Below are positions 25,603-29,487 of a stretch of DNA of 64,000 bases, piece by piece. How positions within the stretch are numbered: the first letter of the stretch is position 1; each line of letters starts with the position of its first letter. The notes beneath the pieces were generated by a model that did not search any database, was not told the DNA's origin, and worked only from the letters and a program-made list of their open reading frames with translations. Origin of the DNA: Thermoanaerobaculia bacterium. GTDB taxonomy: Bacteria > Acidobacteriota > Thermoanaerobaculia > Multivoradales > JAHEKO01. The DNA lies in contig CALZIK010000033.1 in the NCBI GenBank assembly GCA_945787635.1, positions 1 to 64,000 on the forward strand, read 5' to 3'. A program made the position numbers and the translations under genes.

Positions 25603-26184
25603 ATGGCCTGGATCAAGACCGTCGCTCCCGAAAACGCCCGAGGTCTGCTGGCTCAGCTCTATCGCGCTGCAGTGAAGCGCGCGGGGAAGGTCTACAACAT
25701 ACTCTCGATCCAGAGCCAGCGGCCGGCGGCGCTACGTTCCTCGACGCGCCTGTATCTCGAGGTCATGCGCTCGGAAGACTCGGCCCTCAGTCGAGCTCAG
25801 CGCGAGATGATCGCAACCACGGTCTCGAGCCTGAACGGCTGCCATTACTGAACCGAGGCCCACGGCGAGGACCTCCGGGCTGAGGTTCAGGGCTCGGCAG
25901 GTGCCGACGAACTGGTCGCGGCGATCAAGAGCGATTACCGCTGCGCCCAGATCCCTCCTCGCGACCGGGCCATCCTGGATTTCGTCGCCAAGCTGACCCT
26001 GACGCCGGCTGAGACCCGCCGGTCCGATGTCGAGCTTCTGCGGGAGTATGGACTCGACGACGCCGCGATCAGCGACATCGTTCAGGTGACCGCGCTGTTC
26101 GCCTATTTCAACCGTCTGGCGGACGGCCTGGGCATCGATCTCGAAGCGGACATGCATCAGCCTCGGGCACCCGCAGGGAGCTGA
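25603..26184 (+). CDS. AhpD/peroxidase-related enzyme, probable selenoprotein (UGA at 25849-25851)
   Basis: The frame begins at the ATG at 25603, meets TGA at 25849-25851, then stays open to TGA at 26182-26184, giving 193 residues with the first UGA read as selenocysteine. The protein on both sides is one continuous CMD/AhpD-like fold: SRAQREMIATTVSSLNGCHY, then residue 83, then TEAHGEDLR, with downstream IPPRDRAILDFVAKLT. Homologues carry CxxC here; Sec83 replaces the second cysteine, leaving Cys80 as partner and His87 nearby. A SECIS-like hairpin follows the UGA. Likely a thiol/selenol peroxidase-type redox enzyme. A nonsense mutation or sequencing error is the alternative, but the exact position argues against it. 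Confidence 0.8.
25869..25888 (+). promoter_or_regulatory. SECIS-like hairpin downstream of the in-frame UGA
   Basis: A 7-bp stem pairs GGACCTC (25869-25875) with GAGGTTC (25882-25888), with one G-U pair, around the loop CGGGCT. The loop begins 25 bases after the UGA and has G as its second base. This fits the relaxed bacterial SECIS model (a hairpin within roughly 16-37 bases of UGA with a G in the first two loop positions). SelB binding is inferred, not shown. Confidence 0.5.
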
Positions 26185-26254: not shown

Positions 26255-28168
26255 ATGGACGACCGGGATCAGGCATTTCCACAAGACCAGGCGGCGGCGC
26301 TGGTCGTTCTCGAATTTCCCAGCTTTCGTGATTTCATTGACGCCTATTCGCCGATCATCGCGGAAGATGGCATTTTCATCCGCGATGAAGATGTCGCGAA
26401 GAGCAACGCCTTCACGGTCGGGGACCATATCGACTTCGAAGTTCGGCTCAAGGACGACTTCCGGCTGATTCAGGGCAAGGGCGAAGTCATCCGGCTGGGG
26501 ACCGACGAAGCCGCGGGAGGTGCGAGTGGCGCGGCGGTACGGTTTCGCGAGATTGACGAGCCCAGTCAGAGGCTGATCTCCCGGTTGGTCGACAACTACG
26601 TCCGAGACGGCGGCAAACTTTTTGCGGTTGGCGCGCCGGTGGCCGCCGCGGCGGCCGAAGCGGCTGCGGTTGGCGAATCGCAGTTGACCGCGGAAACCCT
26701 GAAGGCGAGTGAAGCCGAGGCGCTGTTCTCGGTTGAAGACGACGGCGAGCTGCTCTCGCCGGTCGAGGTGGAGTCTCTCTCGCCGGCCGATGCCGGTGCT
26801 GTGCCCTCCGGAGACATCGGTGAGTCTGGAGATCCTTTGGTTGTCGAGAAGGGGCTTGCCGATCCGGCGGCCATTCTCGAGGGTCCGGTGGGGCTCGAGA
26901 CGATCGCGATTCCCGCCGGCCTGATCCCCGACGCGCCCTTGCCAACCAAGGACACGGCAATAAGTGAAACCCTCTCGGCGGAGCTCGAGGAGCTCGACGA
27001 CATGCCGTCGTTTGATTCGGATCCGGACATCCTGGACCCTACGCCGCCACTGGAATCTCTCGACCTCCCGCTTTTGGACGACGGGACCGATGGTGAAGAG
27101 GACTCGCCGCCTGGAGCGGAGTCGGTCCTCGCGGCCGCGCTCGGAGAGGACGACACCATCGACCCAGTGGTATCACTTGAAGAATCGGTTTCCGAGATCG
27201 AGGACGCCGAGGGGCCCGACCTGGGAGGAGATGACGACGAGTTTGAAGCCGCGGCAGACTCTCTGGAGTCCGAGCCGGGCGCCCGAGTCGCCATTCCGGA
27301 CGAGATTGCGCAGGTCGCCGAAGAGCTCTCCGGCGTGCATCGCTTCGATCCGGCGGACGATCGGGAGCGTAGCGGAAGGACCTACGCAGGGGCGGCCAGC
27401 GCGAAGTCGGAGGGGAACGTCGGCGGCCGAATCGCAGCGCTGGTGGTGATCGCGACGCTGCTGGGCGCCACCGCGTATTACTTCGGGGACACGATCCGGG
27501 GCTGGTTCGGTCTGGGAGACGCGGACGTCAGTCCGGCGGAGGTGGCAGCGGTCCGGCCCGGCGAAGCACCAACGGCACCGCCAGCTGGCGCTGTACCCGC
27601 CGCGGGCGGTGATTCAACGGCGGTCGAGGGTGTCGAGGTAGGCGACACCGAAACGTCCGATGCCGACGATCCCGTAGATGCCGGCGCCGAACCCGATCAG
27701 GGCTCCGTGGTCGCCGAGGTGCCCGGGACCGACGCCGACGAGGGCGTCTCTCCGGCAGCGACGGCGGCCCAGGTGACTCGCGCAGCTGAAGCGACCCAGC
27801 CGTCGCCCGAACCGGCTTCCGAGGTGATCGGATCTCGCAGGGTGGAGAAGATCGGCTGGCGTAGGGAGGGCGCGACGACGGTGGTCACTATCAGCCTGAA
27901 CACCGAGGTGTCGCAGGCCTATTTCGAAGTGACTCGCGTTCGAGGGGGCGCTCCCCGCGAGGTGCTGAAGATCCGCGGCGTCGACTCTCCCTACTCGCCC
28001 AAAGAAGTGGCGGTCGGGAGCGAACAAGTGCTGCGGTTGCGAACCGGGCTCCACCAGGGCCAGGAGGGGAGCGTCTTGCACGTGGTCGCAGATCTGGCGA
28101 GCCCGGCGGTCACAATCCTCTCGGTCGAGCCCAAGGGGCGCGATCTCGAGATCACGTTCTCGTCGTAG
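26255..28168 (+). CDS. PilZ-like (TIGR02266-type) membrane protein with C-terminal AMIN-like domain
   Basis: 637 residues. Residues 1-115 resemble the TIGR02266 branch of PilZ domains (GIFIRDEDV, then VGDHIDFEVRLKDDFRLIQG and GGASGAAVRFREID). Residues about 130-385 are a long acidic, low-complexity linker rich in Asp/Glu/Ser/Pro. One membrane span lies at about 392-412 (AALVVIATLLGATAYYF). After another low-complexity stretch, residues about 529-637 look like an AMIN domain (KIGWRREGATTVVTISLN, VLKIRGVDSPYSPKE, SVEPKGRDLEITFSS), a fold that targets envelope proteins to peptidoglycan or secretin sites. The protein could couple cytoplasmic c-di-GMP-type sensing to an envelope location. The RxxxR signature for c-di-GMP is not obvious. 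Confidence 0.72.
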   Translation: MDDRDQAFPQDQAAALVVLEFPSFRDFIDAYSPIIAEDGIFIRDEDVAKSNAFTVGDHIDFEVRLKDDFRLIQGKGEVIRLGTDEAAGGASGAAVRFREIDEPSQRLISRLVDNYVRDGGKLFAVGAPVAAAAAEAAAVGESQLTAETLKASEAEALFSVEDDGELLSPVEVESLSPADAGAVPSGDIGESGDPLVVEKGLADPAAILEGPVGLETIAIPAGLIPDAPLPTKDTAISETLSAELEELDDMPSFDSDPDILDPTPPLESLDLPLLDDGTDGEEDSPPGAESVLAAALGEDDTIDPVVSLEESVSEIEDAEGPDLGGDDDEFEAAADSLESEPGARVAIPDEIAQVAEELSGVHRFDPADDRERSGRTYAGAASAKSEGNVGGRIAALVVIATLLGATAYYFGDTIRGWFGLGDADVSPAEVAAVRPGEAPTAPPAGAVPAAGGDSTAVEGVEVGDTETSDADDPVDAGAEPDQGSVVAEVPGTDADEGVSPAATAAQVTRAAEATQPSPEPASEVIGSRRVEKIGWRREGATTVVTISLNTEVSQAYFEVTRVRGGAPREVLKIRGVDSPYSPKEVAVGSEQVLRLRTGLHQGQEGSVLHVVADLASPAVTILSVEPKGRDLEITFSS

Positions 28169-29058: not shown

Positions 29059-29487
29059 GTGTACAGCCCGTTAATGGTTCAGCCGATGCGAGAGGAGCTT
29101 TCCTCGATCGGATTTCAGGAATTGCGCACCGCCGAGGACGTCGAGGCCTTCATGGCGGACAAATCCGGCTCGGCGTTGCTGGTCGTCAACTCGGTCTGCG
29201 GGTGCGCGGCCGGACAGGCGCGTCCGGGCGTTCGCGCCGCTCTCGCGGCCGACATCAAGCCCGACCGTCTGGCGACGGTGTTCGCCGGCCAGGACGCCGA
29301 AGCCACCGCTAGGGTAAGAGGTTATTTCGCCGACATTCCGCCGTCGAGCCCGTCGATGGCGCTGTTCAACCAAGGAGAGCTCGTCTACTTCGTGCCGAGG
29401 CACCGGATCGAGAATCGGTCGGCCGAGCAGGTCGCCGAGGATCTCACCCAGGCCTTCGCGCGCGAGCTCGCCGCCACCGCCCCCTGA
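29059..29487 (+). CDS. Bacilliredoxin-like protein (BrxA/BrxB, YphP/YqiW family)
   Basis: 142 residues with a GTG start preceded by GGAG at 7 bases. The family is a thioredoxin-fold disulfide reductase that debacillithiolates proteins in Firmicutes and is also common outside them. The active site is C47-G-C49 in VVNSVCGCAAGQARPG, exactly the CGC motif of the family; 'DIPPSSPSMALFNQGELVYF' further on is also diagnostic. Cytoplasmic, no signal peptide. It heads a run of three plus-strand genes with 10-base and overlapping junctions. Whether bacillithiol exists in this organism is unknown. Confidence 0.9.
   Translation: MYSPLMVQPMREELSSIGFQELRTAEDVEAFMADKSGSALLVVNSVCGCAAGQARPGVRAALAADIKPDRLATVFAGQDAEATARVRGYFADIPPSSPSMALFNQGELVYFVPRHRIENRSAEQVAEDLTQAFARELAATAP

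Follow-up and report, generated by a model that had tools for sequence, protein, structure and literature searches.

The locus analysed here raises the question of whether a TGA codon lying inside the gene of an AhpD-like protein ends translation or is read as selenocysteine (Sec, U). The window, that is, the whole stretch of 64,000 nucleotides that was analysed, harbors the gene and the codon at the following positions:

25603–26184, + strand: predicted selenoprotein gene, AhpD-like peroxidase-related enzyme (TIGR01926), 193 residues with Sec83
25849–25851, + strand: in-frame UGA as putative selenocysteine codon, at the second position of C80-H-Y-U83

Read from the ATG at 25603 with TGA translated as U, the TGA at 25849–25851 is codon 83, embedded in the motif NGCHY-U-TEAHG and followed by 110 open codons and a TGA stop at 26182–26184. 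The read-through protein matches the TIGR01926 'peroxidase-related enzyme' model with 146 bits (cut-off 81.8) over positions 2–173 of its 178, and also the CMD domain PF02627; a CxxC-type redox pair (C80-H-Y-U83) and a predicted AhpD-like all-helical fold agree with membership of TIGR01926. A previous sequence-only reading had proposed that this TGA splits one AhpD-like protein, that the frame downstream stays open for 110 codons and that the product has about 193 residues, with Cys80 and a Sec codon at residue 83. Translation bears out all of these points: there is a single TIGR01926 frame of 193 codons, and the TGA stands at the second Cys of its C-x-Y-C motif. Taking the sequence evidence together, the gene almost certainly encodes a selenocysteine-containing AhpD-like (TIGR01926) oxidoreductase, UGA being decoded as Sec. 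Standard annotation would split such a gene in two or label it a pseudogene, although it appears to be a conserved active-site selenoenzyme.

Homologues align over their full length with the window protein and keep its start Met. They are present in 74 of the 99 related genomes sampled, and nearly all matches of at least 39% identity in these 74 contain an in-frame TGA. When the 29 high-scoring loci (L032–L060) were extracted and translated, U was placed exactly at C-x-Y-U in every one, and the same was found for four of four loci from a separate collection, three of them titled Planctomycetota (L002, L004 and L005) and one titled 'bacterium' (L003). L058 and L059 fall into a sister subfamily, B, while the window gene and 31 other loci constitute subfamily A (32 sequences). 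Both within and outside the same order, each of the 31 close homologues in the alignment carries TGA precisely at codon 83, with 43–71% identity for those of the same order and the Planctomycetota. In a phylum-wide sample, scored for the presence of TGA and not for its codon position, the better matches had TGA and the TGA-free ones were remote. With identity reaching 71% and other genomes repeating TGA at this very codon, chance falls far short of explaining either the homology across TGA or the TGA codon; the independent genomes read TGA at codon 83, not TGC or TGT. Cys occupies the site in remoter homologues, among them four from alphaproteobacteria and several same-order paralogues. The expectation that Cys should be invariant at residue 83, and that homologues lacking it would count against Sec, is answered by an alignment in which this residue is Cys or Sec in all homologues. 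In the order to which the window belongs, the Sec form of subfamily A is the rule. A Sec-to-Cys reversion was considered for the apparent Cys rows beside the Sec clade (L067, L068 and L070) and rejected, these rows lying on long branches or at open forks. A search of plasmids returned only remote homologues, below 60% identity.

The residues surrounding codon 83 belong to a third feature:

25804–25863, + strand: active-site helical hairpin, with E68 (25804–25806), C80 (25840–25842), Y82 (25846–25848), U83 and H87 (25861–25863)

In PA0269 of Pseudomonas aeruginosa, the proton relay is formed by Glu36, Cys48, Tyr50, Cys51 and His55, whose equivalents in Mycobacterium tuberculosis AhpD are Glu118, Cys130, His132, Cys133 and His137 (PMC3141380). 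The spacing of E68, C80, Y82, U83 and H87 is identical to that of the PA0269 relay, and all five are invariant in 32 of 32 subfamily A members; the window protein thus appears to carry the five-residue relay of AhpD-type enzymes, with Sec in place of Cys. Its AlphaFold model, built with Cys at position 83, is all-helical (pLDDT 93.4), and the best PDB matches of the model (6K40, 2PFX, 3C1L, 2PRR and 2OYO, TM 0.82–0.86) are all TIGR01926-type proteins that share the fold and a site of the C-x-Y-C type, with Cys and not Sec. Given this relay, the enzyme is likely to act as a selenol peroxidase or as an AhpC-reducing adaptor. The proposed model is that the small all-helical product uses its Cys80-x-x-Sec83 pair, with help from Glu68, Tyr82 and His87, to reduce peroxides or a partner peroxiredoxin, and that the catalytic cycle would proceed via a Cys80–Sec83 selenenylsulphide bond. 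A selenoprotein with a role other than peroxide reduction, either as a reductase of disulphides or selenenylsulphides in general or with a different substrate, for example in reductive debromination as carried out by Bmp8, is possible but somewhat doubtful. The debrominase Bmp8 is indeed among the structural matches, the peroxidase activity of PA0269 is only weak (PMC3141380), the name of TIGR01926 is functionally vague and no peroxiredoxin was recognised adjoining the window gene; yet all five residues of the proton relay known from AhpD-type peroxidases are kept, and the closest structures carry annotations as antioxidant proteins or as peroxidase-related ones. The substrate may be a different one, since Bmp8 has the same fold and is a debrominase. 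Computation demonstrates the homology, the conserved TGA, the Sec machinery, the covarying SECIS, purifying selection and the active-site residues; from these we infer the insertion of Sec itself, the peroxidase or adaptor activity, and the identity of reductant and substrate. Being compact and single-domain, the protein could serve to test the biochemical function of its family.

For the decoding step, SelB and Sec-tRNA-Sec are proposed to read UGA at codon 83 during translation, with insertion directed by a bSECIS hairpin that would lie within the coding sequence and start 18 nt downstream. The presence of selA, selB, selC and selD in the genome, on which the sequence-only reading had made its proposal depend, could be established for all four in the draft assembly (4.36 Mb, 97.7% complete). 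SelA scores 426 bits and SelB 342 bits, the latter with its GTPase, SelB beta-barrel and winged-helix domains; the tRNA-Sec scores 73 bits and is called by ARAGORN as tRNA-SeC with anticodon tca; and selD scores 357 bits, with an in-frame TGA of its own at SLASCAG-U-ASK. Two SelD-like genes stand above the selD cut-off, at 1501–2433 of L025 (contig C151 of this genome, G000) and at L026 (contig C195). One of them has the in-frame TGA of a selenoprotein SelD, and the other lies within an open frame of 864 aa, perhaps a fusion. Among the 99 relatives, selA was matched in 94 and was above cut-off in 90, and the four Sec-form genomes of the separate collection have selB above cut-off. No selA above cut-off was found in the four alphaproteobacterial Cys-form genomes. 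These results bear on the proposal that UGA is read as Trp, Gly or Cys, through a change of code or programmed readthrough. As this proposal demands, the frame stays open whichever amino acid TGA is taken to specify, but the window gene itself terminates in TGA, the genome possesses a tca tRNA-Sec together with SelA, SelB and SelD, codon 83 aligns with an invariant redox Cys, and the Cys-form genomes tested are without selA above cut-off, all of which renders a residue other than Sec highly improbable.

The element that would direct the insertion of Sec is the following:

25869–25875/25882–25888, + strand: candidate bSECIS hairpin with a 7-bp stem, GGACCTC pairing with GAGGTTC, and loop CGGGCT at 25876–25881

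The published bSECIS rule calls for a stem of 4–16 bp and a loop of 3–9 nt with G in its first two positions, at 16–37 nt from UGA and with a minimum free energy of at most −7.5 (PMC13188914). Here the stem has 7 bp, it starts 18 nt and the loop 24 nt after UGA, and the isolated hairpin folds with −8.2 kcal/mol. The hairpin at 25869–25888 was therefore described correctly from the letters alone in its 7 bp, its loop and its distance of 18 bases from UGA, and its proposed fit to the bacterial rule holds for the published constraints, the stem also covarying in subfamily A. The hairpin alone is within chance expectation, because stems of at least 7 bp arise under the same rule at 8.5% of random window positions (65% G+C) and because folding of the single sequence yields modest z-scores of −1.0 to −1.6 and favours a different fold. 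Its significance comes from its conservation and covariation across the 32 subfamily A sequences. In these, with nucleotides numbered from the U of UGA, the stem at 21–27/34–40 shows base-pairing in 221 of 224 cells, against 61–111 of 224 when the partner strand is slid by 1–3 nt as a control. Of the 32 sequences, 14 have G-C and 15 have C-G as the outer stem pair, and on a tree from which the hairpin codons were left out this pair changed state at least eight times; another pair, alternating between C-G, T-A and T-G, did so at least six times. What is counted here are pair states, among them unpaired and partly changed ones, so that double compensation does not account for every change. Nearly all of subfamily A retains a CG[G/T]G-type loop at 24 nt after UGA, L002 being different, and no matching conserved hairpin was found in the Cys forms, including the alphaproteobacterial L006–L009. 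The case adds clear SECIS covariation to a family whose prediction has otherwise relied mostly on reads from metagenomes.

Compared with ten relatives, pN/pS is mostly 0.3–0.5 both before and after TGA; values well below 1 downstream of it imply constraint at the protein level on the 110 codons that follow. A true stop, whether in a pseudogene or through a sequencing or assembly error, is thus extremely improbable and excluded for practical purposes: a single in-frame TGA in a draft of 203 contigs could a priori be an error, but about 30 independent genomes also have TGA at this codon, as do other phyla, selection continues downstream of it, a covarying SECIS is present and the genome holds the Sec machinery.

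With UGA read as Sec, the window gene can be compared with systems already known. AhpD-like CxxU selenoproteins were reported from the Sargasso Sea in 2005, with 27 sequences under COG2128 (PMC1088965), and from the GOS set in 2008, with 299 + 70 sequences (PMC2398784), and a review of 2026 lists an 'AhpD-like protein, TIGR01926, CxxU' (PMC13188914). The earlier statement that CxxU versions had been predicted in other bacteria is accordingly matched by the published selenoproteomes. As such proteins are already described, the window gene is a very well supported further member of a known family. It shares with this family, represented by AhpD-like 1 and 2 of the Sargasso Sea and GOS sets and by the TIGR01926 CxxU entry of the review, the TIGR01926 assignment, a CxxU motif with Sec second, a single Sec and a downstream bSECIS; there is no essential difference, and the window member has in common with its own clade a distinctive covarying SECIS. 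PA0269 (2O4D) has the same helical core, in addition to the relay spacing, but it is shorter and has Cys instead of Sec. The AhpD of M. tuberculosis (1GU9), again with the same core, also has Cys, together with a rearranged topology and His for Tyr. The alphaproteobacterial L006–L009 have a site of the C-x-Y-C type, with Cys and without the hairpin or selA noted above. NF041238 (AhpD_rel_CFYUT, alkylhydroperoxidase-related (seleno)protein) is homologous in its C-terminal half, and the CFYUT of its name resembles the CHYUT found here; however, its model has 357 positions against the 193 aa of the window protein, which reaches 84.6 bits, over the C-terminal half only, where the cut-off is 175. 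In genus g11 of family f3 (G019, G027, G034 and others), weak matches have frames of mostly about 350–420 aa with one TGA, and in length these resemble the NF041238 family rather than the window gene.

The same genome encodes a second TGA-containing TIGR01926 paralogue, L061, at 20773–21252 of contig C122, with the motif CHYUVVHHGAGL; it belongs to subfamily B and has a SECIS-like hairpin whose register differs from that in the window gene. In subfamily B, the loop of the hairpin lies about 17–19 nt after UGA, as opposed to 24 nt in subfamily A, and the two hairpins occupy non-corresponding places; in ten subfamily B sequences 59 of 70 cells are paired, and slid controls reach at most 37. Because of these non-corresponding places, a relocation of the SECIS, or else two separate gains of Sec, may tentatively be suggested for this one family in a single lineage.

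Downstream, the selenoprotein gene is followed after 70 bp by another gene:

26255–28168, + strand: PilZ-domain protein (PF07238, 25 bits)

Its product is long and acidic, with an N-terminal PilZ/TIGR02266-like domain. According to tblastn synteny, at least 12 relatives also have a PilZ-domain gene beside the Sec gene, and at least three retain the adenine deaminase encoded upstream on the opposite strand. This conservation of the neighbours indicates that the Sec gene is an old resident of the locus. The PilZ neighbour has no obvious functional link with it and offers no redox partner. The region upstream of the selenoprotein gene showed no sigma-70 promoter pattern. A codon-usage scan of the window gave seven other Sec-TGA candidates (52736, 61895, 58375, 45279, 61499, 38371 and, on the minus strand, 33358), which were rejected by eye, as their translations look like those of a wrong frame and have no recognisable family pattern. 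The window also contains a second thiol-redox protein, a bacilliredoxin of the BrxA/BrxB family (29059–29487, + strand; TIGR04191, 200 bits), located 2.9 kb downstream of the selenoprotein gene.
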